Assembly: GCF_001306145.1 (NCBI RefSeq)
Contig: NZ_LGKO01000004.1
Span: 62,001-126,000, forward strand
Direction: 5' to 3'
DNA from: Thermanaerothrix daxensis
Lineage (GTDB): Bacteria > Chloroflexota > Anaerolineae > Anaerolineales > Anaerolineaceae
DNA length: 64,000 bases
A model generated the notes under the pieces. It saw nothing but the letters and a program-made list of their open reading frames with translations, searched no databases and was not told the origin of the DNA. Shown here in pieces: positions 7,179 through 20,796 of the stretch. Both the position numbers and the translations under genes were made by a program. Within the stretch, counting starts at the first letter, position 1, and every line of letters starts with the position of its first letter.

Positions 7179-7556
7179 TCATCGCTGTCTCTTCCTGCGC
7201 TTTGGATAAGCCACCGGAGGCACATCAAGCGGCCCATATCGTGAAGGACCAAACAGACGGTAAAGCACGTAGGTGATTAGCTGAAAGAACGTGAAGATGA
7301 CCAGCATCAACGCAATCGTCAGAATGATCTTCACATACAACAGGGGATCACTACCCGGCGCCAGCAAATCAGCAGGGATCGTCGCCCAACCCCGACGCGC
7401 GTTTTCATCCAGAAGGGCAAGCGCACCAAAATACCCCAGCACTGGCGTGAGAATCATCAGGCCGAAGCCCACTCCCTGCCAGATGGGATGCAATTTCGAA
7501 TTGGCTTCACGCTCGTTGAGCGACGGTTGACGTTTGTAGTCGGTATATTTGCCCAT
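7179..7556 (-). CDS. Small two-TM membrane protein within the hydroxylase operon
   Basis: An unrecognised 125-residue protein. It has a charged N-terminus, TM1 around residues 27-48 ([22 protein letters not shown]), TM2 around 75-97 ([23 protein letters not shown]), and a very basic C-terminus (YPKRRKRQR). The positive tail suggests it stays cytoplasmic. It is wedged between the FAD/2Fe-2S fusion (1-nt overlap) and the Mo subunit (about 19 nt), so it should be co-made with them. It may tether the hydroxylase to the membrane or link it to a respiratory chain. That role is inference from position only. Confidence 0.65.
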
Positions 7557-8980
7557 CAGACCCCTTCGGTTTGTTGCTCCGCTGCACGCTCAATGGCCTG
7601 AATAATTTTGTAATATCCGGTGCACCGGCACAAATTGCCGGTAATAGCATGTTGAATATCCTCAATCGAAGGACGTGGCTTTTCCTCAAGCAGTTTTACC
7701 GCGGACATGATGAAACCCGGAGTACAATAACCACACTGTACAGCCCCCTCCTCAACAAAGGCTTGCTGAACAGGGTGTAGCCGGTCATCCGTTGCAATCC
7801 CCTCAATCGTGCGAATCTCGGCAAGATGGGCCCGCACGGCGGGAACCATGCAACTCATCACTGCCACACCATCCAGGAACACCGTACAAGCCCCACATTC
7901 GCCCTCTGCGCATCCCTCCTTCGTGCCGATCAAGCCGGCTTCTTCCCGCAGGAGGCGCAGGAGAGTCTTATTCTGTCCTGATGTGAACTCATAAGCCTTT
8001 CCGTTGATAGTTGTCCGGATTGGGGTATTCGGTGTATGAACAATGGTCGCCTGTAAAGTGCGGCTGTTAGGCACTGCATTCCCCCACAACAGCACGGGGG
8101 AGGCGGGCAAATTACCCCGTTCACGCCCCTGAGCGATTGCCGTTAGACCCCGCCGTACCAGGACACCCACCATATAGCGCCGATACTCTGCTGATCCCCG
8201 GATATCTGAAATAGGTCGAGCAGCCTGTGCAGCCAGTTCGGCCGCCTGCCGAATCGTTTCGGTATCCAGAACCCGACCCACGAGGTAGACTTCGGCCTCG
8301 CGAGCATGAATGATGGTAGGCGCAACAGCCCCCAACGTGATGGCCGCATGAACAACTCGCTCGGCTTCAAGGGTCAGCACAATAGCCGCGTTAACCACCG
8401 AAATGGCTTGTGCCCGGCGCAGGGCGTATTTCAGGAATATGCCATGCTGATTGGACTTCAAGGCCGGGAATACAATGTCCACCAGCATTTCATCCGGTTC
8501 AAGGACAGTGCGTCGCACACCCGTGTAAAAATCCTCAAGAGCGACTAAACGTTCTCCTCGAAGCGAGCGCAAACGCACTTTGGCTCCCAGCGCCATGAGC
8601 GGTGTGATCGTATCATTGGCGGGTGAGGCCGTGATCAGGTTACCGGCGATTGTACCGCGGTTACGAATCTGCGGGGATCCCACCTCCCAAGTGGCCTGGG
8701 CCAGGGGCAGTGCATATTCCCGAATCAACTTAGACGCCACACAGTGGTTGTGAGTCACCAGTGGACCCAGGTGAAGATATCCATCTTCATCCAGCACAAT
8801 CTGATCCAAATTGGGGATGCGAGTCACATCCACCAGGGTCTCAATGCCTTTACGCACTCCACGCTCAATTTCCAAAATCAGATCTGTGGCACCAGCCACA
8901 ACGCGTGCCTTTTCGCGTTTTTGCGCCAAAACGCGCAATGCATCTTCCAGGGTTGCTGCACTAACGTATTCCTGCCACAT
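7556..8980 (-). CDS. Fused FAD-binding and [2Fe-2S] subunit of a molybdenum hydroxylase
   Basis: A 474-residue fusion of two normally separate subunits. Residues 1-290 are the CoxM/XdhB-like FAD domain ([37 protein letters not shown]). Residues about 313-470 are the CoxS/XdhC-type iron-sulfur domain, with a plant-ferredoxin cluster ([17 protein letters not shown]...SC) and a second helical cluster (CGYCTPGF ... CRCTGY). Both clusters have all eight cysteines. The SD AGGAGG precedes the ATG. The order FAD then Fe-S in one chain differs from the usual separate or FeS-FAD-Mo xanthine dehydrogenase order. Electrons would pass from Mo through both clusters to FAD. Confidence 0.9.
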
Positions 8981-8983
8981 AAG

Positions 8984-9793
8984 CTAGCCTCCTGATACAG
9001 TTTCTTTCATTCGCCGTCCGCTGCCGCCATTACGCAACATGATAATTTCAGCCATGATGCTTACGGCAATCTCCTCAGGGGTTTCGGCGTTGATCTCCAA
9101 CCCAATCGGTGAGACGACCCGCGCCAGCGAACTCTCGGCAATTCCGCGCTCTATCAGCGCTTTTCGCGTGACCGCCCAGCGTCTTTTCGAACCGATGACA
9201 CCAATATAAGCGGCTGGGGTCTCCAACAAAGCCGGTAAGCCCTCTATATCAACTACACTACCGCGAGTGGTCAGAATCAGGTAGGTCTGGGAATGGATAC
9301 GCAAGTGTTTAGGCAATTCAGACATGGGCACAGGGTAGAATTCATCAGCATCCGGATTGAACTCCGGGGTGCAAAATTCTGGGCGGTCATCACACACCGC
9401 CACCCGAAAACCCAACCATTTGGCCAGGTGGGTGACCGCTTTGCCCACATGACCTCCTCCGATGACCACAATCATGGGCTTAGGAAGCACCGGCTCCACA
9501 TAGACCTCCAGCTGACCACCGCAGACACCTGGATCACCGCGCTGCGGATCTACCATATCATACCGCAACAAACGTGGCCGGCCATCCTGAATCGCCGCTA
9601 GCGCCTCTTTATGAACCCGATTCTCCAGTTCGCCGCCGCCGACAGTACCAATGAAATGCCCATCGGCATACACCAACATTTTACTGCCCTCGTGACGAGG
9701 CGTGGAGCCCCGTGCATAGACTACCGTGCACAGAGCCCCCGCCTCCCCTCTTTCAACCAGATTCAGAACCTCCCGATAAATTTCCACACTCAT
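8984..9793 (-). CDS. xdhC: XdhC/CoxI-family molybdenum hydroxylase maturation protein
   Basis: A 269-residue XdhC-type protein. The N-terminal XdhC_CoxI domain is visible (GALCTVVYARGSTPRHEGSKMLV; GTVGGGELE), then a Rossmann nucleotide-binding domain (IVVIGGGHVGKAVTHLAKWLGFRVAVCDDRPEF), and a conserved GVIGSKRRWAVTRKAL segment. XdhC proteins bind the Mo cofactor and help its sulfuration and insertion into the Mo subunit. It lies between the two hydroxylase gene sets, with 16 nt upstream and 3 nt downstream spacing, and could serve both. Confidence 0.88.
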   Translation of the reverse strand: MSVEIYREVLNLVERGEAGALCTVVYARGSTPRHEGSKMLVYADGHFIGTVGGGELENRVHKEALAAIQDGRPRLLRYDMVDPQRGDPGVCGGQLEVYVEPVLPKPMIVVIGGGHVGKAVTHLAKWLGFRVAVCDDRPEFCTPEFNPDADEFYPVPMSELPKHLRIHSQTYLILTTRGSVVDIEGLPALLETPAAYIGVIGSKRRWAVTRKALIERGIAESSLARVVSPIGLEINAETPEEIAVSIMAEIIMLRNGGSGRRMKETVSGG

Positions 9794-9809
9794 GGCTCTA
9801 AACCAAGGA

Positions 9810-12800
9810 TTACGCCTTTCTCAAAGCCCGCCAAACTTTCTCTGGCGTCACAGGGTTATCAAGGATATCCGCCCCGCAGGCATCCAGCACTGCATTGGCC
9901 ACCGCCGGTGCCACACCATCCATGGGGATCTCGGCCACCGCTTTAACCCCAAACGGGTGAGAAGGCTCAAAAGTTTCCACAAAGATGGTCCCCAATTCTG
10001 GCATCTCGTTTGCGCGGAAGATGTGGTAGTTAACCCAATCTTTTTCCCGCGGGCGGCCCTGCTCATCATATCTCAATTCCTCACACACCGCGTAACCCAG
10101 CGCCTGAGTCATTCCCCCTTCAATTTGACCGGAGGCCGTGATGGGGTTGACTATCACTCCCGAATCAACCGCCATGACCAGACGATCAACCGTCACCGCC
10201 CCTGTTTCAATGTCTACGGTCACCTCGGCAAACTGAGCCGCAAAAGGTGGAGGCGCAACAGGGGACATGTGGGAACCAATGCCCATGATTTGCTCCTGGT
10301 CCGCGTGATGAAGGCTGTTCAGGGCAATTTCTTCCATGGTGACATAACGACCATCCGGAGCCACGGCTTTTCGATCAACCAGACGGATGTCTTCCGGCTT
10401 GACCTCGCCATGACCATTCCCGCGTTGATTGAGCATTTTTGCCGCGCGAATTCGAATCCGCTCCGCCGCCTGTTGTGCGGCTTTGACCACTGCTGCACCG
10501 GAGATGTAGGTGGTACTGGAAGCGTAGGCACCTTTATCAAATGGCGTGAAGTCGGTATCCGACGAGTAGACAATAATATCTTCAACCGGTACCCCCAACA
10601 CTTCAGCCGCCATCTGTGCCAACACTGTATCCGAGCCGGTCCCTAAGTCTGTAGCCCCAACCATGAGATTGAACGAGCCATCATCGTTCATCTTGATCGA
10701 GGCGCCTCCCATATCCAGGTAAGGGATGGCCGTCCCTTGCATGACCATCGCCACCCCGATCCCCCGGCGCAAATGAGGTTTACCGGGCACCTGATGCCAT
10801 TCGGGGTTGCCAAACTTCTGCTCCCATCCAATGACCGCCTTACCTTGTGCAACACATTCCTCCAGCCCTACCGTGTGGATGATCTCGGGACGGGGTTCGC
10901 GCCCTTCACTCCAGGCTGTGCTGAAGGGATGCAACTCGCCTGCCCGTAAGGCATTTTTCAGACGAAATGTGATAGGATCCAGCCCCAAATCTCGAGCAAT
11001 ACGCTCCATGTGACGCTCTACCGCCCAAAAGCCCTGAGGCACACCATACCCTCGATAAGCCCCTGCTGGGGGCTTGTTGGTATATACAATATCCGCGTAG
11101 AAACGGATATTCGGGGCCTTACGGTACTCACCATCCCCTACATAAAGGGCCATAGCTTTATGCCCGGTATTTCCTGTGACAGTCAGCCCATGGCAGCCAT
11201 AGGCCCCCGTATCGCTCAAAACATACATGGCATTGGCGGTAATTGTGCCGTCAAGTTTGACACCGGTTTTCATGCGAATGCGCATCGGGTGGCGGGAGCG
11301 CGCCGCGGTGAATTCCTCTTCACGGTTATACACATACATCACCGGCCGCCCCGTTGCAATGGTCAAGTGCGCCGCCACATCCTCGATCAGTACTTCCTGT
11401 TTACCGCCAAACCCACCTCCAATACGCGGCTTAATCACCCGAATACGCTTAACGGGTAGCCCCAGCACAGGAGCCAAGATACGGCGCACATGAAACGGCA
11501 CCTGTGTACTGGTGCGGATAACCAACCGATCATCCTCATCCCAGTAGGTCACCACCACATGAGGCTCAATATGGGATTGCTGCACCTTGGGAACTTCATA
11601 CTCCGCCTCGTAGATACGGTCGGCTTCCTGAAAACCCTTCTCCACATCCCCAATATCAATGCGTATTTGCGCCGCCAGGTTGCGTTTGGGATCCGATTCG
11701 GCAAAGTTTACATAATCCGGTTCATCATGAATGATAGGCGCCCCATCTTTCAACGCATCTGCAGGGTCCAGGATGGCGGGCAGAGGCTCGTACTCGACCT
11801 CAATCAACTTTAGAGCCTGCTCTGCAATCTCTTCCGTTTCTGCGGCTACAAAGGCTACCCGATCTCCCACAAAGCGGACCTTTTCATCCAGGGAAAAGGT
11901 GTCCAGCGGTCCAGGAATAGGATCCGATTGACCAGCCGTAGAATATGGAACACGGGGAATATCCTTGTAGGTTAATACCGCTGCCACCCCAGGCAAGGCG
12001 CGGGCTTTTGACACATCAATATGCTTAATCCGCGCGTGGGCTACCGGACTGTGCAGTACCTTGGCGATCAACATTCCCCGCATTTCAATATCTGCTGCAA
12101 ATGCTGGCTTGCCCTGCACCAGTTTAATCGCATCCACTTTGATTTCCGGCTTTCCCACACGCTGCAGAGCCTGACGCTCGGGACGCATCACCGTCCAGAT
12201 GCGTGGCATAACCTGAGTTCGCACCGAGGGGGATACTTCATTGTCCAATGCGCTCTTAGGCGCATCAGAGGCTCCACCGGGCCAGTCGGTTGGGAAAGCC
12301 ATAGCCTCAGGTTCACCCTCGATAGGCGGTACCTCTTCCCCACGCATGACCGCTGCCGCACGCATAATTGCCTGCACAGGTTTGAGGTAACCGGTACAAC
12401 GACACAGCACGCCCGAGATGGCCTCGCGCACCTCTTCCTCGGTTGGGTTAGGGTTGCGCTCCAATAGCGCCTTCGCCGCCAGCGCTATTGCCGGCGTGCA
12501 ATAACCGCACTGTATGGCACCGCTTTCCACCAGCGCTTGCTGAATGGGATGCAACCCTTCAGTTTTACGCCAGCCCAAATCGGGATGCTTTCCCATCCCT
12601 TCAATGGTTTCAATGCGATGACCATCTGCCTGCGCCGCCAGCATCACGCAAGTGTTGGTCGGTACCCCATCCAGCAAGACCGCACAGGCACCACACTCTC
12701 CATGTTGGCAGCCACCATCCTTTACGCCGTAATAGCCATGTCGGCGCAGAGCGGCCAACAGAGTCTCATGGGGGGCCACTTGCCATTTATGCTCTTCACC

Positions 12801-12824
12801 GTTGATCCAAAGTCTGATTTGCAT
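9810..12824 (-). CDS. Fused [2Fe-2S]-molybdopterin subunit of a xanthine dehydrogenase-family hydroxylase
   Basis: A fusion of about 1004 residues. Residues 1-160 are the 2Fe-2S domain (GGCQHGECGACAVLLDG...TC; CGYCTPAI ... CRCTGY). After a linker rich in Pro/Ser/Asp (about 160-225), the rest is a full Mo-binding subunit (GKPAFAADIEMRGMLIAKVLHSPVAHA; RIGGGFGGKQEVLIED; GAYRGYGVPQGFWAVE; and catalytic Glu in FGVKAVAEIPMDGVAPAV). The ATG at 12824 is preceded by AGAGGAGGGAG; the frame upstream overlaps the FAD gene and lacks homology. The FAD partner is the adjacent 12842-13594 gene. This architecture is the mirror image of the second set in the same operon. Confidence 0.9.
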   Translation of the reverse strand: MQIRLWINGEEHKWQVAPHETLLAALRRHGYYGVKDGGCQHGECGACAVLLDGVPTNTCVMLAAQADGHRIETIEGMGKHPDLGWRKTEGLHPIQQALVESGAIQCGYCTPAIALAAKALLERNPNPTEEEVREAISGVLCRCTGYLKPVQAIMRAAAVMRGEEVPPIEGEPEAMAFPTDWPGGASDAPKSALDNEVSPSVRTQVMPRIWTVMRPERQALQRVGKPEIKVDAIKLVQGKPAFAADIEMRGMLIAKVLHSPVAHARIKHIDVSKARALPGVAAVLTYKDIPRVPYSTAGQSDPIPGPLDTFSLDEKVRFVGDRVAFVAAETEEIAEQALKLIEVEYEPLPAILDPADALKDGAPIIHDEPDYVNFAESDPKRNLAAQIRIDIGDVEKGFQEADRIYEAEYEVPKVQQSHIEPHVVVTYWDEDDRLVIRTSTQVPFHVRRILAPVLGLPVKRIRVIKPRIGGGFGGKQEVLIEDVAAHLTIATGRPVMYVYNREEEFTAARSRHPMRIRMKTGVKLDGTITANAMYVLSDTGAYGCHGLTVTGNTGHKAMALYVGDGEYRKAPNIRFYADIVYTNKPPAGAYRGYGVPQGFWAVERHMERIARDLGLDPITFRLKNALRAGELHPFSTAWSEGREPRPEIIHTVGLEECVAQGKAVIGWEQKFGNPEWHQVPGKPHLRRGIGVAMVMQGTAIPYLDMGGASIKMNDDGSFNLMVGATDLGTGSDTVLAQMAAEVLGVPVEDIIVYSSDTDFTPFDKGAYASSTTYISGAAVVKAAQQAAERIRIRAAKMLNQRGNGHGEVKPEDIRLVDRKAVAPDGRYVTMEEIALNSLHHADQEQIMGIGSHMSPVAPPPFAAQFAEVTVDIETGAVTVDRLVMAVDSGVIVNPITASGQIEGGMTQALGYAVCEELRYDEQGRPREKDWVNYHIFRANEMPELGTIFVETFEPSHPFGVKAVAEIPMDGVAPAVANAVLDACGADILDNPVTPEKVWRALRKA

Positions 12825-12841
12825 GGCTCCCTCCTCTGCGC

Positions 12842-13594
12842 TCACAAAACACTCATACATCGGCTTAATAGTACCTGCGCTACCTCTTGACGATACGCGG
12901 CACTCGCCCATTCGTCATCTGCATCCTGCAACACCGAACGCAAGGCTACCTGGGAACCACTTGCATCCGGTCCATCCATAACCAAGCGAGGTGTTTTTCC
13001 AAATCCTCCCACGACCACCCGTGTGCGCCCCGAGGGCCACTTCGCTACTGCTACCAGGATGATCGGGCGATCTTCGGGCGTACGGGCAACTGCTTCATAC
13101 TTGAAATTGACATTGGTTGCTACACGCAACTCCGTGATCAGTAGACCCTTCTGAGGGCGTCGCCCCCGCAAAGCCAGAAAATCCCCTACCGACTCCACCT
13201 GCTCCCTCGGCATCCAAAGCAGTGTGGCATCTAAAGCGAGCAAGGCCGCCAGGAAAGGTGAGCGCCCATCACCGCTGACAACACTGCCCGCCACGGTAGC
13301 ACGTTGCCGTAAATTGAAGGTGGTCTCTTTGCGCGCGGCCAGAACCAAATCGGGCCGAAGGCCTGCATAATCAATGAGTTGTTGCAAGGTGACTGTAGCC
13401 CCGATTTTTAAGATGTTTCCCTGAAGCATAATTTGATTTAAGCCAAGAGCCTGCAAGTCCACTACGGCACAATCGGGCTCTTTGAGACGGCTCAGCGTTG
13501 TTCCGCCCCCTAATGGAAGTGTGGGCGGCTGAGGACGCTGCAAAAGCCCCAAAGCCTCTTCCAATGTTTTTGGACGATGATACTCGATGATCAT
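12842..13594 (-). CDS. FAD-binding subunit of molybdenum hydroxylase
   Basis: A 250-residue FAD subunit of the CoxM/XdhB type. It carries the FAD pyrophosphate motif LPLGGGTTLSRL near residue 28 and the second FAD loop (LRQRATVAGSVVSGDGRSPFLAALLALDA). It is shorter than the usual 280-300 aa and the C-terminal CO-dehydrogenase flavoprotein domain is compact. The ATG has the SD AAGGAGGG. It is followed after 17 nt by the FeS-Mo fusion, with which it should form a complete three-cofactor enzyme. Confidence 0.88.
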   Translation of the reverse strand: MIIEYHRPKTLEEALGLLQRPQPPTLPLGGGTTLSRLKEPDCAVVDLQALGLNQIMLQGNILKIGATVTLQQLIDYAGLRPDLVLAARKETTFNLRQRATVAGSVVSGDGRSPFLAALLALDATLLWMPREQVESVGDFLALRGRRPQKGLLITELRVATNVNFKYEAVARTPEDRPIILVAVAKWPSGRTRVVVGGFGKTPRLVMDGPDASGSQVALRSVLQDADDEWASAAYRQEVAQVLLSRCMSVL

Positions 13595-13610
13595 ATTTCC
13601 CTCCTTACCG

Positions 13611-13635
13611 GGTCACCCGATATAATCAGGTGACC
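13611..13635. repeat. Intergenic inverted repeat between the LLM oxidoreductase and the FAD subunit gene
   Basis: GGTCACC (13611-13617) and GGTGACC (13629-13635) form a perfect 7-bp inverted repeat around an 11-nt AT-rich loop; the stem extends by a further pair or two with a G-U. It occupies part of the 59-nt gap in an otherwise close-packed operon. There is no T-run, so it is more likely an RNA processing or stabilising hairpin than a terminator. Confidence 0.45.
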
Positions 13636-13653
13636 TGGTTCCAGGTACTACAT

Positions 13654-14649
13654 CTATATCTGAGCAAAAGTATCAATCAGGAGCTTGTAATCACCACCGA
13701 CAGGGTACAGAATCGGGCAGGTCGCGCCCGTCTTGAGATACTCCTTGACTTTGGCCTTGGCCTCCTCAGGCGTACCCGAAGCCGTAATACGATGAATCAG
13801 ATCTTCCGGCACCAGGTGCTTGGCCTTTTGAATCTGTTCATGGGTTGCTGGCCATCCTAAAATGCTTTGGATCTCCGCCACCACGTCTGGAGAAACTCCT
13901 GAGGCTTTGGCAATATGAGGCTGCTGAGCCAGGTACTGGCACAAAAGTTCACGGGTTGTATCAATGGCGCGATCATGATCCGGATCCACCGAGCACACAA
14001 TTAACTGTGGGCGATCCAGGTCATCCACCCGCCGGCCTGCCTTCTTGGCGCCCTTATCCAGAAGTTCCATTGCGCGGTAATTGTATTCGGGCGGAACACA
14101 ATAATTCAAAACCACCCCATCCGCAATCTCACCCGCCAGTTCCATCATCTGATCGCCTGTCGCACCGATCATAATCGGCACGTTGCGTGGCTCGCGCCGA
14201 CCATGCACCACATCCAGTTCAATCCCTTCAACATGGATGAATTCTCCGTGGAAAGTAACCCGCTCCATGTTGAGCAGCCGGCGCAAAACCGTCACCGTCT
14301 CGCGCATGGCCACCAGCGGCTTCCTCCGCTCAATCCCCACGTTACGGGCTAGCGGATCCCACCAGGCCCCAATGCCACAGATGATGCGGTTGGGCGCTAA
14401 ATCATCCAGGGTCAGGAAGGTAGCCGCCAGTAAACCGATGTTGCGTGTCCAGTTGTTAATGACCCCTGATCCAATTTTGATCCGCTCAGTAACCGCAGCA
14501 TAAGCTGCCATTGGCACAATCGCGTCCCGCACCAGACGGCTTTCCGCCTGCCAAACAGCCTCAAATCCCCGCTGTTCGGCATAGCGGACGAAATCCAGCC
14601 CTTCGCGCAAATCATGGGCATCTTGTAAATAAAGTGCTACGCGTTCCAT
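13654..14649 (-). CDS. LLM-class (luciferase-like) F420- or flavin-dependent oxidoreductase
   Basis: A 331-residue TIM-barrel bacterial-luciferase-family protein resembling F420-dependent methylene-tetrahydromethanopterin reductase-like proteins. Typical segments are [62 protein letters not shown], and [26 protein letters not shown]. Immediate neighbours are cofC, cofD, cofE and an F420 reductase, so F420 rather than FMN is the likely cofactor (inference). The SD AGGAGG precedes the ATG. The substrate is unknown; it could act on the product of the molybdenum hydroxylases. Confidence 0.85.
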
Positions 14650-14667
14650 GGTTTCCTCCTGGGGATA

Positions 14668-15282
14668 TTATAGAGTAAGTGGGGTAGAGTGAAGTTGACG
14701 CCAGTGCTCCAGATCCTCGGGCCAGTCGAGGTCGAACGCAACTGATGGAAGTTCCAACGTTCGTACCTCCAGTCCCTTTTGACGGGCCTGGCGACAATGC
14801 GCTTCATACGAGTTGCTGCCAAACTGATAATCCAAAACCCCTGGTGGCCGTACCAGTAAAGCGTTGGTTCCATAGTGATGGCGGTCAGGTACTATCACAA
14901 TCCCTCGTTCAAATCGTGCCGTCTGAAAAATGGCTTGCACATCCTCGGCAGTGATCAGCGGCAAATCTACCGGCAGAATCAACACCTCACTCGCTGCGTA
15001 AATTTGGGCCATAACCGTTGCCCGGCGCAGGGCCATATTCAACCCGATACGACCATCCTCCTGTAAGGTACGAGCACCCCATTGACGTGCGGTAGCAAGA
15101 ATGGAGGTGTCACGGCTAACCACAAGGATCTCTTCAATATTATGAACCTCTCGAAGTACCTGAAGCAAGTGCATGTAGAGCATCTGGTTCAGCAGAACCC
15201 GTTCATGTTGCGATAAAACAACTGCCAGCCGTGATTTGCCCTGATAGATGGGTTTTACAGGCACAATCGCCCATGTGCTCAT
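14668..15282 (-). CDS. cofC: CofC-like 2-phospho-L-lactate guanylyltransferase
   Basis: A 204-residue nucleotidyltransferase. It begins WAIVPVKPIYQGKSRLAVVLSQHERVLLNQML, the CofC/FbiD form of the GT-A NTP-transferase signature. The family acidic motif is visible at LILPVDLPLITAEDV, and GIVIVPDRHHYGTNALLVRPP matches CofC. It activates 2-phospholactate (or phosphoenolpyruvate) with GTP for F420 side-chain assembly. Its ATG overlaps the cofD stop (4 nt), so CofC and CofD are coupled. Which phospho-acid it uses cannot be told from sequence. Confidence 0.9.
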   Translation of the reverse strand: MSTWAIVPVKPIYQGKSRLAVVLSQHERVLLNQMLYMHLLQVLREVHNIEEILVVSRDTSILATARQWGARTLQEDGRIGLNMALRRATVMAQIYAASEVLILPVDLPLITAEDVQAIFQTARFERGIVIVPDRHHYGTNALLVRPPGVLDYQFGSNSYEAHCRQARQKGLEVRTLELPSVAFDLDWPEDLEHWRQLHSTPLTL

Positions 15283-16232
15283 AAAGATAGCGCCTCCCGG
15301 ACCGCTTGTCCAAAGGTGACTGCTTCCTTTGCTAGACGGATACGATCCTGTTCATCTCGCATTACGATATCGGTAACATGCGGAATTATACCGAGATGCT
15401 GAATCTCCTCAGCCATCATTGCATCTGAGTTATCCACCAAAATTCCATGCAACAATGGCTGGTAAAAATGAGCCACTGCAAGCGGACTGGGCTGCCACCC
15501 CAATTCACGAAACATTTTCGCCGCAGGGCCTTTCAGCGCTTGCCCTCCTACAAGCGGTGAAACGGCAATAACCGGTTTTTGCATGAGCGCCTCCCGCACA
15601 CCCGGAAGAGTCAGAATAGGGCCAATGCTGACCCATGGATTTGAGGGGCAAAGGATGACCAAATCTGCCCCCCAAAGGGCCTCCAACACGCCCGGGGCAG
15701 GCTGCGCCGTTTCACTCCCCATAAAACGAAACCCCTTCACCTCAGGCTGACACTGCTGCGCCACAAAATAGTCCTGGAATCCAAGTTCATCCCCTTCCTT
15801 TGTCAGGACAATAGTGGAAACGGGATCATCGCTCATGGGTAAAACTTTCACTTTAATCCCCCACGCCTGACAGAAAGCCGCCACTACCTCTGAAAGGCGC
15901 TCCCCTTGCTGTAACCGGCGAGTTCGCTCTAGGTGCGTTGCCAGATCACGATCTCCCAGGCGAAACCAGGTTGGTCCCCCAAGTCGGCCGATTTCTTCCA
16001 TAACCGCCCAGGTATCTCCCATGCGCCCCCAACCGGTATCCGGGTTGGCTATGCCCGCCAGTGTATAGCAAACGGTATCCAAATCTGGGCTGATATGCAA
16101 CCCAAAGTGGCAAAAATCATCTCCAGTGTTAACGATCACGGTCAGGCGATCGGGCGGCACGCAGCGCGCCAACCCATCCACTAATTTTGCTCCACCGACT
16201 CCGCCTGCCAGGGCTACGAGGTTCATAGCCAA
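15279..16232 (-). CDS. cofD: CofD 2-phospho-L-lactate transferase
   Basis: A 317-residue CofD/FbiA protein. The hallmark N-terminus VALAGGVGGAKLVDGLA is present, with VIVNTGDDFCHFGLHISPDLDTVCYTLAG and the central LICPSNPWVSIGPIL-like segment (VILCPSNPWVSIGPILTLPGV). It transfers the phospholactyl group from the GDP-activated donor to Fo, giving F420-0. It sits 7 nt from the cofE stop in a cofE-cofD-cofC string. Confidence 0.95.
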   Translation of the reverse strand: MAMNLVALAGGVGGAKLVDGLARCVPPDRLTVIVNTGDDFCHFGLHISPDLDTVCYTLAGIANPDTGWGRMGDTWAVMEEIGRLGGPTWFRLGDRDLATHLERTRRLQQGERLSEVVAAFCQAWGIKVKVLPMSDDPVSTIVLTKEGDELGFQDYFVAQQCQPEVKGFRFMGSETAQPAPGVLEALWGADLVILCPSNPWVSIGPILTLPGVREALMQKPVIAVSPLVGGQALKGPAAKMFRELGWQPSPLAVAHFYQPLLHGILVDNSDAMMAEEIQHLGIIPHVTDIVMRDEQDRIRLAKEAVTFGQAVREALSL

Positions 16233-16239
16233 TCACTTC

Positions 16240-17013
16240 CTACCGGAATAAGTCCTGTTCTTCAGGACGACGTAACTCAGAGAAAGATGACTCGCGCAAC
16301 GGATACGGAAATCCCCTCACATGGACGACCGGGGTCCTCTCATCCGCCTGGCCCATTACCAATGAGGCCGCCGCTGCCAATTCATCCGCTGCAGCCACCT
16401 GAGTCACTCTCAGTTGATAACCGAACAAATCGGGGTGGCCTCGCAGATCTACCAACGCCGGAACTCCTGCCACGCCAATGCATACCCCCACGGTACCCAG
16501 CCGCCATGCCCGCCCATGAGAATCAATGATCAGCACCCCGATTGAAACCCCACTGCGCTCTTTTAATCCATTACGAATCCGCCGGGCCGAAGCATCCGGG
16601 TTTTCAGGCAACAGCAACACCCACTCCTCCGGATTACCGTAAGGACCCTCCACGTTCGAGTGATCAATGCCCGCATTGGCACAAACAAACCCCAACCGAT
16701 GCTCCACAATCAGCGTTCCCGGCCGGTAGCGTAAAACCTTACGGCTTTCACGCAACACAAGTTCAACAAATCGCTCATCCTTGTCAGTAAGACGCGCCAG
16801 TTCTACTGCCTGTGGCGAGGGCGCCACCTCTCTCAGATTCACCAGGCGGCCCTCGGATTTCGAAACAATTTTCTGAGCAATGACCAGGATATCTCCGGCT
16901 TGCAAGGCAATCTCATTTTTGAGCAAAGCGCGCCAGAGAATATCGCCCAAGTCATCACCTGGACGGATTAGTGGAATACCTTGCAAGGGAGTCAACACCA
17001 AAGGGGCAGGCAT
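16240..17013 (-). CDS. cofE: CofE coenzyme F420-0:L-glutamate ligase
   Basis: A 257-residue stand-alone CofE. Family features are GDILVIAQKIVSKSEGRLVNLREV, SRKVLRYRPGTLIVEHRLGFVCANAGIDHSNVEG and the metal/GTP region GVLIIDSHGRAWRLGTVGVCIG. It adds gamma-linked glutamates to F420-0. It lacks the C-terminal nitroreductase domain found in actinobacterial FbiB. Spacing to the F420 reductase gene is 15 nt and to cofD 7 nt. The Fo synthase genes (cofG/cofH) are not in the window. Confidence 0.93.
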   Translation of the reverse strand: MPAPLVLTPLQGIPLIRPGDDLGDILWRALLKNEIALQAGDILVIAQKIVSKSEGRLVNLREVAPSPQAVELARLTDKDERFVELVLRESRKVLRYRPGTLIVEHRLGFVCANAGIDHSNVEGPYGNPEEWVLLLPENPDASARRIRNGLKERSGVSIGVLIIDSHGRAWRLGTVGVCIGVAGVPALVDLRGHPDLFGYQLRVTQVAAADELAAAASLVMGQADERTPVVHVRGFPYPLRESSFSELRRPEEQDLFR

Positions 17014-17028
17014 GGCAGATTTGAGTCT

Positions 17029-17712
17029 CTAATCTGGTCGTGGTACACCCGTGATTCGAATTCCAGCCGACTGTACACCAAATTGTTTATTTAAGCCGAT
17101 CAAAATCGAAGTCAGTCCTTCAACAACCACCGCATTCTCTGTGGGTCCGGCATTCCAGCCCACGAGCCCCGCATCTTTTACCAAACCAAGCACCACCTCA
17201 CGGGCCTCTTTATTACCGCCACACACCAGTACATCGCACTCAATCGGTTCATCATGCAAGAGATGTTCATAAGAGATATTTTGGAAAGCTGCCACAACCT
17301 GAACATTTTCGCCCAGAATGCGCTGCGCTTCCATTGTAGCACTACCGTCCGGAGGCATCTGAACACGGGTAACCTTGGGAGGTACCAGCGGAACCGTAAC
17401 ATCAATGACGATTTTGCCCTGAACAAATGGCTTAATAAACTCACACATCTCACGGTGGGCCGCATAGGGCACCGTCAGGACCACAATCTCACCTGTTTGA
17501 GCCGCCCGTTCGTTAGCCATCCCAACAACCGATTGACCTGATGTCCCCAACAACCTGTTCACTTCTTCAGCCGCTGCCTGGGCTTTGGCTTCCTGCCGCG
17601 AACCAATAATGACGCGATGCCCGAAACGCGCCCAACGAAAGGCCAATCCCTTACCCTCTTTACCGGTACCCCCTATGATTGCAATTGTACGTGTCATTCG
17701 TGGCTCTTCCAT
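17029..17712 (-). CDS. npdG: NADPH-dependent F420 reductase
   Basis: A protein of about 227 aa with an N-terminal Rossmann fold (TIAIIGGTGKEGKGLAFRWARFGHRVIIGSR), the G-T-G-x-E-G-x-G form typical of F420:NADP oxidoreductases. VVLTVPYAAHREMCEF and VIDVTVPLVPP are family signatures. It moves hydride between NADPH and F420, linking the F420 pool to central redox. Two ATGs are possible: 17712, with GGGAG 9 nt upstream, and 17697. It lies between ssnA and cofE and shares its coding end spacing of 15 nt with cofE. Confidence 0.9.
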   Translation of the reverse strand: MEEPRMTRTIAIIGGTGKEGKGLAFRWARFGHRVIIGSRQEAKAQAAAEEVNRLLGTSGQSVVGMANERAAQTGEIVVLTVPYAAHREMCEFIKPFVQGKIVIDVTVPLVPPKVTRVQMPPDGSATMEAQRILGENVQVVAAFQNISYEHLLHDEPIECDVLVCGGNKEAREVVLGLVKDAGLVGWNAGPTENAVVVEGLTSILIGLNKQFGVQSAGIRITGVPRPD

Positions 17713-17735
17713 GGTGTTATGCTCCCGAAATGAGA

Positions 17736-19082
17736 TTAGAACAGGGCGTGATAGCGTTCCCAAATGCGTGGCGCCAATTGTCGCGCCTCATAGGCGATTT
17801 TCTCTGCATCCAACGTGAGCAGTTCTCGTTCGCGCATCAGCACTTTCCCGGCCACAATGGTCGTGGTAACCATGCTTTCATGGAATCCGAATACGATGTG
17901 CCAGGGAAGGTTATCGGGAGTCAACGGCGTAAATGGATGGTAATCCACAAATATGAGATCGGCTTGCGCTCCAGGAGCAATGACCCCAATTGGCCCACAA
18001 TTGAACTGCTGGGTAGCCAAAGCCGCGTTGTTGTAGATCGCCATTTTGACCACATCCGTGGCCGGCATACGGCGCGGATCCAGATGCCACAGTTTATGGG
18101 CAAGATAGGCCGCTTTCCATTCTTCCCACATGGCATTGGAAAAGCCATCATTCCCGAGACATACCTTAACCCCTGCTCGCAACATTCCCTCGGTCATGGC
18201 CATGCCCACTGCATTATTCATATTGGAGCGCGGCTGGTGTGTCACCCACGTACCTGTCTCGGCCAGCAGGTTGATCTCGCGGACATCCACATGCACTGCA
18301 TGGACTACAATGGACCTTGGCCCCAAAATCCCGTGTCGGTAAAGGCGATCCACCACGCGTTCACCATAACGGTGCAAACTATCATACTCGTCCACGGGAT
18401 GTTCGGCAACGTGGATATGGAACCCCACGTCCTCACCAACCCGCTCTCTACAAGCGCGTAAGGTTGCTTCGCCCAAAGTCAAGGAGGCATGCAGCCCAAA
18501 CATGGCGCTCAGACGCCCACCAAGAGGATGTTCGCGTTTAACGTATTCGATAAATCGCAGATTCTCCTCAATCCCAGCCTGTGCGCGCTCGGGTCCATCG
18601 CGATCTGTGACCTCATAACACAATGAGGCTCTAACACCACTCTGTTCCACTGCACGCGCGATATCATCCAGCGAACCCGCTATGGCATTGGGAGAAGCAT
18701 GGTGATCTATCAAAGTAGTCGTACCGTGACGTATGGCATCCACCAAACACACCATGGCGGAGTAATAAACAGCCTCATGAGAAAGCGATTTATCCAATGA
18801 CCACCACAGTTTTTCCAGAATCTCGGGGAAATCAGCGGGAGCGGGTCCAGGGATTGCCAGACCCCGGGCAAAAGCACCATAAAAATGGGTATGGGCGCAA
18901 ATGTTGCCAGGCATCACATATTGGCCTTTTGCATCCAGACGCTCTTCCTGAGGGTATTTGGCTAATAAGGTTTGGGTGGGACCGATTTCCTGAATGCGCT
19001 CATTGTCAATATATATGGTATGGTTCTCGAGGATACGATTGGGGGACTCCCAGGTAATCAGAGTACCATTCGTGATTAACAT
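17736..19082 (-). CDS. ssnA: SsnA-like amidohydrolase, first gene of the F420/hydroxylase operon
   Basis: A 448-residue amidohydrolase-superfamily protein close to E. coli SsnA: YVMPGNICAHTHFYGAFARGLA, LEKLWWSLDKSLSHEAVYYSA and TTLIDHHASPNAIAGSLDDIA. Metal ligands are in CAHTHF, the HIHVAEHPVDEYD segment and the late NDGFS Asp. SsnA occurs in selenium-dependent purine hydroxylase clusters and is probably an aminohydrolase of a purine or related ring, though its substrate is unproven. The ATG at 19082 has the SD GAGGTGG. It is the promoter-proximal gene, behind a structured leader. Confidence 0.88.
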   Translation of the reverse strand: MLITNGTLITWESPNRILENHTIYIDNERIQEIGPTQTLLAKYPQEERLDAKGQYVMPGNICAHTHFYGAFARGLAIPGPAPADFPEILEKLWWSLDKSLSHEAVYYSAMVCLVDAIRHGTTTLIDHHASPNAIAGSLDDIARAVEQSGVRASLCYEVTDRDGPERAQAGIEENLRFIEYVKREHPLGGRLSAMFGLHASLTLGEATLRACRERVGEDVGFHIHVAEHPVDEYDSLHRYGERVVDRLYRHGILGPRSIVVHAVHVDVREINLLAETGTWVTHQPRSNMNNAVGMAMTEGMLRAGVKVCLGNDGFSNAMWEEWKAAYLAHKLWHLDPRRMPATDVVKMAIYNNAALATQQFNCGPIGVIAPGAQADLIFVDYHPFTPLTPDNLPWHIVFGFHESMVTTTIVAGKVLMRERELLTLDAEKIAYEARQLAPRIWERYHALF

Positions 19083-19114
19083 AAACCACCTCAGACAGAT
19101 CAAATTAACAAAGG

Positions 19115-19143
19115 CGCCCGTGGTCTAGTCATGTTCACGGGCG
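19115..19143 (-). repeat. 8-bp inverted repeat in the ssnA leader
   Basis: CGCCCGTG (19115-19122) and CACGGGCG (19136-19143) form a perfect stem with a 13-nt loop. On the transcribed minus strand a run of nine T lies just before it, not after it, and another GCCCGTG copy (plus strand 19157-19163) precedes that T-run. The downstream CACGGGC on the RNA could pair with either copy, which is the geometry of two alternative hairpins. Confidence 0.5.
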
Positions 19144-19217
19144 TCAGAAAAAAAAACACGGGCTTAGCGAAGGAAGAAGGGGAGAAATTAGCAGACAGGT
19201 GTAAGTACAGACTCATT

Positions 19218-19308
19218 GGATCGGTGGACCTTATCCGGCGGCACTTTTCGACGGGCTAGTGGGATTGCCCGACGCCAGTCAAGCAGTGCTTGAACTGACC
19301 ACCGATTC
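19218..19308 (-). ncRNA. Candidate structured RNA leader (possible riboswitch) of the ssnA-F420-hydroxylase operon
   Basis: The minus-strand leader can fold into a multi-branched element. P1 pairs 19220-19227 with 19299-19306 (ATCGGTGG/CCACCGAT, extendable by two pairs). P2 is a hairpin at 19276-19297 (CAGT-CAAGC ... GCTTG-ACTG with one bulge). P3 is a hairpin at 19252-19271 (CGGGC/GCCCG). Unpaired joining sequence on the + strand includes CCTTATCCGGCGGCACTTTT. It begins just downstream of a minus-strand TAAAAT (19317-19322). I cannot match it to Moco, purine, cobalamin, TPP or other riboswitch cores I know. Folding was done by eye. Confidence 0.5.
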
Positions 19309-19368
19309 CTGCATATATTTTAGCACAAAACAAAAACAGAGGAAGTGTTTTTGTCTTACATTTCCAAT

Positions 19369-19374
19369 TATAAT
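19369..19374 (+). promoter_or_regulatory. TATAAT -10 box upstream of the dipeptidase gene
   Basis: A perfect TATAAT lies 34 nt upstream of the chosen ATG (19408). The -35 region 17 nt upstream (TGTTTT) is weak. A start of transcription near 19381 would leave the AGGAG at 19396-19400 in the leader and exclude the upstream in-frame GTG at 19345. Confidence 0.45.
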
Positions 19375-19407
19375 CGGTTTATCCCGATTGGATACAGGAG
19401 TTTGAAC

Positions 19408-20796
19408 ATGATGTCGGACAAAACCCAAGCCCTGAATTACATTGAGCGCCACCGCCAGGCTTTTCTCAATGCCTTAATGGAATTTGTGAGCATTCCATCT
19501 GTTTCCACTGATTCAGATCACAAAGGGAATATTCTCCAAGCCGCTCGCTGGTTGGTTAACGAGTTGCAGCGCCTTGGTTTCACTAACGCCAGATTGGTTG
19601 AAACACCGGGGCATCCTGTGGTCTTTGCCTATACCGATCCGCCGCTACTGGATAGCCCTACTGTCTTAATTTATGGGCATTACGATGTTCAACCCCCTGA
19701 TCCCTACGAAGAATGGAAAAATCCACCATTTTCGCCGTGGTTAGAAGGAGAACACCTTTATGGGCGCGGTGCCTCGGACATGAAAGGCCAGGTCGTGGCT
19801 GCCCTTAAGGCGGTGGAGGCCATCGCAACGACCGGTTCTCTTCCTCTCAATATCATCTGGGTCATTGAAGGAGAAGAAGAAATCGGATCGCCCAACCTAG
19901 GTCAATTCCTTGAACAGAACCGCCACCTTCTTAGGGCGGATGTGGCCTTAAATCTGGACACGGGAATGATTGCTCCCGATCAACCCACGATTACTTACGC
20001 GCTACGGGGTGTAGCCGCGTTCGAACTCCGTGTTTACGGGCCCGAACGCGATTTGCATTCCGGGCTTTTTGGGGGTGTGGTACACAACCCTGCTCAGGCG
20101 TTGTGCGAACTGATTGCTGGAATGCATGATGCCTCTGGAAGAGTGCTGATCCCCGGCTTTTATGACCGCGTCCGACCCCTCGATGAGGAAGAACGCCGGG
20201 AATTGGCTCGCATTCCCTTTAAGGAGATAGAACTGGTCCGCATTCTTGGTGTGCCTCACCTTTATGGCGAAGCGGATTACACGCCAATCGAACGCATTGG
20301 CGCCCGGCCAACCCTGGAAATCAACGGGCTTTATTCGGGCTACACCGGCCAGGGATCTAAAACAATCATCCCGGCATGGGCAATGGCAAAGATCTCGACA
20401 CGCCTGGTTCCCGACCAGGATCCCGAAGAAGTCCATCAACAATTACGTGCCTACCTCGAGGCGAAATGCCCCCCTACGGTGCGGTGGGAATTAACCGCCT
20501 TCGCAGGTTCTCCGGCTTCGATCACCGATCGCCATCATCCTGGGGTCCGCGCGCTGGCACATGCACTGAAGAGTGTCTGGGGCAAAGACCCTCTCTTCCG
20601 CCGCGAGGGTGGAAGTGTCCCCGTAGTTGGCATGATGCAGCGCATCCTTGGACTGGAATCGGCCCTCTCTGGATTTGGATTGCCCGATGATCACATTCAT
20701 TCCCCCAATGAACGGCTCCATCTACCCACCTGGTATCGAGGCATTCAAGCCGTGATTGAATTTCTGCTGAGCTATCCCGAATTTGCTCGCGTCTGA
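19408..20796 (+). CDS. M20-family dipeptidase / metallopeptidase
   Basis: A 462-residue M20/M25/M40 family enzyme. The zinc ligand segments are IYGHYDVQPPDPYEEWKNPPF, LYGRGASDMKGQVVAAL (metal-bridging Asp) and WVIEGEEEIGSPNL (general-base Glu followed by Glu ligand). A dimerisation domain (ERDLHSGLFGGVVHNPAQAL) lies in the middle. It probably hydrolyses dipeptides in the cytoplasm. No signal peptide is present. The ATG at 19408 has AGGAG with 7-nt spacing. The stop overlaps the SD of the DUF1385 gene. Confidence 0.9.
   Translation: MMSDKTQALNYIERHRQAFLNALMEFVSIPSVSTDSDHKGNILQAARWLVNELQRLGFTNARLVETPGHPVVFAYTDPPLLDSPTVLIYGHYDVQPPDPYEEWKNPPFSPWLEGEHLYGRGASDMKGQVVAALKAVEAIATTGSLPLNIIWVIEGEEEIGSPNLGQFLEQNRHLLRADVALNLDTGMIAPDQPTITYALRGVAAFELRVYGPERDLHSGLFGGVVHNPAQALCELIAGMHDASGRVLIPGFYDRVRPLDEEERRELARIPFKEIELVRILGVPHLYGEADYTPIERIGARPTLEINGLYSGYTGQGSKTIIPAWAMAKISTRLVPDQDPEEVHQQLRAYLEAKCPPTVRWELTAFAGSPASITDRHHPGVRALAHALKSVWGKDPLFRREGGSVPVVGMMQRILGLESALSGFGLPDDHIHSPNERLHLPTWYRGIQAVIEFLLSYPEFARV

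Follow-up and report, generated by a model that had tools for sequence, protein, structure and literature searches.

The purine riboswitch (RF00167) is a three-way junction that controls purine genes, and in it a loop-loop contact is conserved. The molybdenum cofactor RNA (RF01055) is linked to molybdenum enzymes. The xanthine/urate riboswitch NMT1 (RF03054) is reported to be an OFF switch that sequesters the ribosome-binding site (RBS), and it has been reported from Proteobacteria only (PMC7373994). In Mycobacterium tuberculosis, the B12 riboswitch of ppe2 controls a leader ORF that is translated, and the downstream gene depends on this translation (PMC11260477). In Streptococcus, a candidate motif ahead of 5-formyltetrahydrofolate cyclo-ligase combines an SD-like sequence with a putative start codon of a leader ORF and a terminator hairpin (PMC11109978, excerpt).

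The leader described here comes from a stretch of 64,000 nucleotides of Thermanaerothrix daxensis (contig NZ_LGKO01000004.1, positions 62,001 to 126,000), called the window in the following. It shares the three-way junction and the purine genes with RF00167, but its loops L2 and L3 vary in length and are ill-suited to the RF00167 loop-loop contact. The link to molybdenum enzymes is shared with RF01055, which is a distinct, larger family and occurs as a separate element in some of the same genomes. The likeness to NMT1 is in the association with purine oxidation genes and in an RBS-sequestering platform, whereas NMT1 is a two-stem junction and an OFF switch, and the new RNA is a three-way junction and would be an ON switch (PMC7373994). 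Among the literature covered, the nearest published mechanism is that of ppe2, also a riboswitch-gated leader ORF (proposed here from ORF-to-terminator geometry). The ppe2 switch differs in its B12 aptamer, its OFF direction and its termination-reinitiation coupling (PMC11260477), whereas the ORF here extends up to or across a terminator and the direction would be ON. The Streptococcus motif has a similar SD-like leader, putative leader-ORF start codon and terminator hairpin; it differs in its three hairpins, its restriction to Streptococcus and the stop codon in its P2, and the excerpt describes it without a three-way junction aptamer (PMC11109978). A description of the present motif was not found in the openly licensed papers searched, a scope outside which a major survey from 2017, with 224 candidate RNAs, lies.

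We consider it probable that the leader represents a new orphan riboswitch class, an ON switch with two targets and a purine as the likeliest ligand. It would be a member of an undescribed class of the Anaerolineales, with an aptamer that combines P1 (GGUGGU/GCCGCC) with P2, P3 and a joining strand of the conserved sequence AAAAGY. In the unbound RNA, the GGUGGU strand of P1 would pair with CCACCGAUCC, a stretch flanked by the ribosome-binding site and the start codon, and translation would be off; bound ligand would stabilise P1, free the start region and turn translation on. Directly in front of xanthine-dehydrogenase (XDH) genes, the RNA would act on the start codon of XDH itself. In ssnA operons such as that of the window, its target would be a short leader ORF, the translation of which would reach or cross a terminator hairpin and let transcription continue into the ssnA-F420-XDH operon. 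The likeliest ligand would be a purine substrate or product of these enzymes. Computation established that the structure is conserved, that competing pairings exist and that the RNA is associated with these genes. The features are collected in Table 1.

Table 1. Features of the leader and the operon in the window (positions in the window; all on the minus strand)
Feature	Position	Details	Basis
Extended -10-like box TGCTAAAAT	19317–19325	RNA start a few nt downstream	sequence
Competing helix (anti-P1), 5' strand AUCGGUGG plus GG	19299–19309	pairs with 19218–19227; -16.8 kcal/mol, p 0.013 (window copy)	duplex test
Aptamer domain	19237–19303	three-way junction P1/P2/P3	covariation; RNAalifold
P1 5' strand GGUGGU	19298–19303	shared half of the competing helix	covariation, duplex test
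P2 hairpin	19276–19297	variable loop, covarying stem	covariation
P3 hairpin CGUCGG..CCGUCG	19249–19274	U.U position; closing base pairs conserved	covariation
Joining strand AAAAGU	19243–19248	conserved, P3 to P1	alignments
P1 3' strand GCCGCC	19237–19242		covariation
Weak Shine-Dalgarno-like AAGG	19229–19232	between P1 3' strand and competing strand	sequence
Competing helix, 3' strand CCACCGAUCC	19218–19227	directly 5' of the start codon	duplex test, energies
Leader ORF, 38 aa	19100–19216	ATG 19214–19216, stop 19100–19102; proposed to be switch-gated	
Hairpin in the leader ORF	19115–19143	terminator-like, weak U tract; -13.8 kcal/mol, tail CCTTTGTT	
ssnA, putative aminohydrolase SsnA	17736–19082	first full operon gene	NCBIfam NF005540, 521 bits (cutoff 444)
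Rest of operon	7556–17763	F420 reductase npdG, cofE, cofD, cofC, LLM oxidoreductase, XDH-family subunits, xdhC-like	

The leader lies between ssnA and the divergent gene of an M20-type dipeptidase (19345–20796). As originally predicted, it begins just past a -10-like box on the minus strand, and TAAAAT was also present upstream of three relatives (L009, L012, L014). A consensus promoter scan gave no minus-strand sigma-70 site at the leader, so the promoter call is carried by this box. The 103-nt segment 19210–19312 folded at -40.3 kcal/mol (z -3.33) and beat all of 200 dinucleotide shuffles; the fold of the 228-nt leader was no better than that of shuffles (z 0.17). A plasmid search gave no match. 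The M20-like dipeptidase gene is divergent from the RNA in the window and in the sister genome (L048:513-2180), where the mechanical ORF call overruns the leader.

A T9 run (19148–19156) between two copies of GCCCGTG (19157–19163 and 19136–19142), with a later CACGGGC (19116–19122, minus strand), had been pointed out as well. All of these exist, but the arrangement is not conserved in the sister genome (L048): the first GCCCGTG and the T9 are replaced by GCCTGTATTTTTC, and only the hairpin of the second copy is kept. An either-or switch made of the T9 and the duplicated GCCCGTG was rejected for this reason.

No Rfam family reached its gathering score in the whole window. At E values up to 10, the leader gave only three unrelated matches and none to the models of the purine riboswitch (RF00167), NMT1 (RF03054), the molybdenum cofactor RNA (RF01055) or the ZTP riboswitch (RF01750), the last of which was considered for a resemblance in GACUGGCG..CCGCC. 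Fourteen related loci gave no family match either. RF00167 was found in none of 61 relatives, with matches in two control genomes. NMT1 was likewise found in 0 of 61, a count that does not show absence, as the control genomes were without a match too.

The structure was aligned in two sets. Alignment A4 was made with MAFFT from 72 of 74 candidates (L111 and L115 were excluded for long inserts). In these 72 rows, the blocks GUC, GGCG and GAAAAG were invariant and the loops L2 and L3 were variable in length. The helices were P1 (GGUGGU/RCCGCC), P2 and P3 (CGUYGG/CCRUCG), with the U.U position of P3 changed to U-A or C-G in 4 of 72 members. Changes on both sides were seen in 15 of 21 pairs, with 176 doubly changed cells compared to 61.5 in shuffles. 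The covariation score was 0.361, compared to 0.161 when shuffled and 0.110 at best when slid, and every measure fell when the partners were slid. RNAalifold, run unguided on A4, returned the same helices, including GGUGGU/RCCGCC.

The second set tested the structure outside the model. It comprised 40 divergent loci that share no core with A4, and 38 belong to other families within the order. These loci were detected with the covariance model R2 (model-dependent), and their alignment A7 was a plain MAFFT alignment (model-independent) of 37 of the 40, with L304, L305 and L313 excluded for long inserts. Paired cells made up 81.0%, compared to at most 55.7% after sliding, and there were 84 doubly changed cells compared to 34.9 after shuffling. 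The covariation score was 0.342 compared to 0.207, and none of 500 shuffles reached it. The weaker measures were reached more often: the number of pairs changed on both sides by 77 and the number of further pair types by 8 of 500 shuffles. P1 pairs changed on both sides in 4 (columns 18-129), 10 (19-128) and 7 sequences (20-127). Only the G and the AAG of GAAAAG were invariant in the 37 rows.

Hence, the mRNA leader contains a conserved, covarying aptamer, one of the features by which a riboswitch is recognised, and it is well established that this conserved cis-regulatory RNA is real. The original prediction of a novel riboswitch-like leader had named a search with all Rfam models and covariation in relatives as its checks; no known family fits, the covariation is strong in both alignments and the prediction is supported.

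The RNA is not confined to the window. A DNA search found a second copy on another contig of the same genome (G000:C2:636221-636319), directly upstream of an XDH operon; a start codon follows directly behind its conserved end, and then genes for the FAD and molybdenum subunits of the XDH family. At the DNA level, 9 of 61 genomes searched had a match, the own genome included. With a first covariance model (R1, built from 10 copies), the RNA was found in 50 of 147 genomes of the family and in 27 of 396 genomes drawn from the class, some of the latter with weak E values and dropped later. With R2 (built from 72 sequences), it was found in 20 of 400 genomes drawn from the phylum and in 142 of 301 drawn from the order Anaerolineales, in 64 of 112 genera. 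In the model search over 82 sources, L108, L110 and L114 were excluded as repeats of loci already included. Of its 84 matches, five with no core visible by eye (L104, L122, L123, L124 and L126, 24 to 26 bits) were dropped, and so were two matches on the opposite strand of L050/L051 (21.8 bits).

A pattern scan of named genomes gave at least 119 stretches, and 80 loci were listed, among which a second match of L194 (15.9 bits) was dropped. Among the 80 loci listed, eight records were not labelled Chloroflexota: two score well, four had 16 to 22 bits and two had no match. The records of L202 (47 bits) and L180 (67 bits) are labelled Spirochaetales and Paludibacter, which may reflect horizontal transfer or mis-binned MAG contigs. 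The leader of L167, labelled uncultured Thermanaerothrix, is identical to that of the window's sister genome.

The association with genes was nearly exclusive. An XDH-family gene or ssnA was the first gene recognised downstream of 113 out of 115 distinct cores; the other two were followed by a BMP-type ABC permease and by a contig end. For this count, six loci with at most 25 bits (L151, L222, L198, L230, L207, L176) were taken as chance matches and 35 repeats were set aside; seven loci (L116, L097, L210, L183, L218, L192, L173) received their XDH or SsnA label by eye from the N-termini, and L128 was labelled ABC permease. Outside the model, an XDH or SsnA match lay downstream in 39 of 40 loci, two of the 40 sharing a core with the first set. 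From the start of the RNA match to that of the recognised ORF, the automatic set had a median distance of 90 nt, and 7 of 140 exceeded 300 nt. For the 40 loci outside the model, the XDH/SsnA match lay at a median of 126 nt (more than 400 nt in 5).

The RNA likely binds a small molecule. A protein as the binding partner, either an autoregulating enzyme or a dedicated regulator, is very unlikely. The XDH and SsnA operons do encode proteins able to bind their own leader, and such binding is compatible with the sequence evidence, but a joining strand conserved inside a small three-way junction resembles metabolite aptamers. The use of one element for two gene sets with different first genes in one genome would also suit a metabolite aptamer.

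The original prediction had placed a 10-bp P1 around two hairpins. Helix and hairpins are all present where they had been placed, but the helix (AUCGGUGG/CCACCGAU plus GG/CC, with one bulged A) is probably not the aptamer stem. It is best read as a competing helix, and the true aptamer P1 is probably GGUGGU/GCCGCC. The longer helix was rejected as the main reading of P1 because divergent members keep and covary GGU/RCC, mostly without a significant downstream strand. GGUGG is common to both helices, which are therefore mutually exclusive.

Of 100 distinct members, 70 had a competing duplex that was significant at p≤0.05 compared with dinucleotide shuffles of the downstream stretch, and 40 reached p≤0.01. 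For two control segments of these loci, p≤0.05 was reached in 1 and in 4 of 100. The 100 members remained from 156 loci once 35 duplicates had been removed together with 16 loci lacking an automatic XDH/SsnA label, 4 lacking the core pattern and 1 lacking GGTC. An earlier test for ungapped helices (35 of 104 at p≤0.05) was blind to a lineage with a helix interrupted around the AUG and used a wrong GGUC in some rows; it was superseded by the energy-based test. The competing strands vary in step: GGCGG occurs with CCGCC (L058), AGGUGGU with ACCACCU (L086), UGGAUCGGCG with CGCCGAUCCA (L174) and GGUUC-GGUGGU with GCCACC-AAUGAACC (L105). An expression platform that excludes the aptamer, a further feature of riboswitches, is thus predicted in 70 of 100 members. 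The remaining 30 had no significant competing helix, nor did 26 of 38 divergent members (12 had one), meaning that the platform is lineage-specific. Some members without a significant competing helix appeared by eye to have a longer P1 (L283, L296).

In 69 of the 70 members, the start codon lay inside the competing helix or at most 6 nt 3' of it. Read from that start, 52 of 57 XDH-type members had an N-terminus with an early tryptophan, as is typical of these subunits. One of seven SD-like words was found between the 3' strand of P1 and the competing strand in 53 of 70. When the two states were forced, the competing state was favoured over the P1 state in 70 of 70 members (median -5.0 kcal/mol), a calculation made for the 70 picked for a strong competing helix and with tertiary contacts ignored. 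This preference fits a default-off state that the ligand needs to overturn.

The opposite direction, an OFF riboswitch, is unlikely. In such a switch, AUCGGUGG/CCACCGAU would be the aptamer's own P1, stabilised by the ligand so that the start codon is blocked. The long helix is indeed the minimum-energy pairing predicted for the window copy, it lies over or beside the start codon in nearly all members having it, and NMT1 provides a precedent for an OFF switch with RBS sequestration (PMC7373994). The divergent set, few members of which have a significant competing helix, nevertheless shows both-side changes in the P1 pairs. RNAalifold on A4 also picks GGUGGU/RCCGCC, in a comparison of the two P1 choices that is partial because A4 ends before most competing strands. 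The register test favours the true P1 modestly. Over the eight positions past GGU/RCC, in-register pairing was the best of seven registers, with 5.07 of 8 positions compared to 4.91 in the register slid by -3 for the 70 members and 4.60 compared to 3.90 for the 30. Over the first three positions, the slid register was level with the true one. It comes this close because the P1 strands repeat with a period of three (GGUGGU/GCCGCC). ON is the direction that we infer as the better supported.

A self-cleaving ribozyme or a processing site is extremely improbable. The compact three-way junction with its conserved GAAAAG strand does recall small ribozymes, but a near-exclusive position at the start of XDH/SsnA operons and a pairing tuned to the start codon would not be expected of a ribozyme, and Rfam gave no ribozyme match.

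For the proposed ON switch, the start codon is a different one in the two gene sets. In ssnA leaders, the AUG that follows the competing strand begins a short ORF and not ssnA. All 12 leaders with a detected terminator have the stop codon of this ORF past the terminator stem or at most 12 nt upstream of it; these leaders include close relatives and form about six independent groups by eye. The clearest terminator is that of L062. The other two frames reached the terminator in 9 of 24 cases and the +2 frame alone in 5 of 12; this control is partly weak, as the +1 frame stops at once in 8 of 12, where the AUG is followed by A. No terminator was detected in 7 of 19 processed ssnA leaders. The start of ssnA was not assigned automatically in L078 and L089, and these leaders were read by eye only. 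In L082, the leader ORF has 56 codons and ends shortly past the U tract; in L088, with no terminator detected, its stop codon overlaps the ssnA start. The hairpin of the window was not called a terminator by a stricter scan. The leader-ORF frame stops inside this hairpin in the sister genome and beyond it in the window.

Where the leader ORF reaches or crosses the terminator, a translating ribosome would disturb the terminator. A new purine-sensing riboswitch class of the Chloroflexota with two outputs, acting directly on XDH start codons and, ahead of ssnA, on a leader ORF whose ribosome melts an intrinsic terminator, is a possibility that we put forward tentatively. If true, a translational switch would have been turned into transcriptional control, and the ssnA leaders would illustrate how a switch found in nature can govern a terminator by way of a leader ORF.

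The clues to the ligand come from the genes. Moco, F420, a purine and a selenium compound had been named as candidates; the gene context favours the purine and makes Moco and F420 less likely. The XDH of the second copy had its best score with selenium-dependent xanthine dehydrogenase (796 bits, just below the cutoff of 830). It has Glu at the position aligned to Glu802 of bovine XDH, a residue that binds purines. Two aldehyde oxidoreductases have Phe there and nicotinate dehydrogenase has Leu; Glu is not exclusive, as 4-hydroxybenzoyl-CoA reductase also aligns a Glu after a one-residue insertion. All 69 distinct XDH-type sequences had Glu at this position, counting the ORFs in which the loop pattern was found. 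A BMP/PnrA-family ABC transporter upstream of the second copy fits purine use, as does YgfK (1158 bits) at a Flexilinea locus with SsnA and MocA-like genes. It is a fair inference from the gene content that the ligand is a purine, with xanthine, hypoxanthine, guanine or urate as the likeliest candidates.

A ligand made or used in the operon in the form of molybdenum cofactor or F420 is quite unlikely. The linked XDH-family enzymes are molybdenum hydroxylases, and F420 genes are present in the window operon. The known Moco RNA RF01055, however, is present as a separate element in 13 of 61 relatives (L275-L278 among the loci), including three that also carry the new RNA (G004, G011, G047). Several RNA-carrying XDH operons (L045, L053 and L058 among them) have no F420 gene within about 7.5 kb downstream, and others have one.

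With a gene association this clear, the purine or another ligand should be assignable by a few direct tests. Such a class would provide a sensor RNA for the anaerobic use of purines in a phylum about whose regulation little is known, and it would help to identify what the puzzling SsnA-F420-XDH operon acts on.

The typical order in ssnA-type operons was npdG, cofE, cofD, cofC, LLM oxidoreductase and XDH subunits; some XDH-first operons also run on into ssnA and F420 genes. In many ssnA operons, a 2'-5' RNA ligase-like gene (Pfam PF13563; L075:3443-4105) follows cofE (15 ORFs in 15 loci). The window operon has no such gene there, and its cofE adjoins cofD. In two ssnA operons (L054:7804-9150, L059:7719-9065), the F420/LLM genes are followed by a gene that resembles those of manganese-dependent pyrophosphatases. 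The large XDH subunit of the window operon (9810–12911) has GGKQ, with Gln at the position aligned to bovine Glu802, compared to GGKE in the directly controlled XDH copies. Its substrate may therefore not be a purine, and the two RNA-linked operons of this one genome may differ in substrate.
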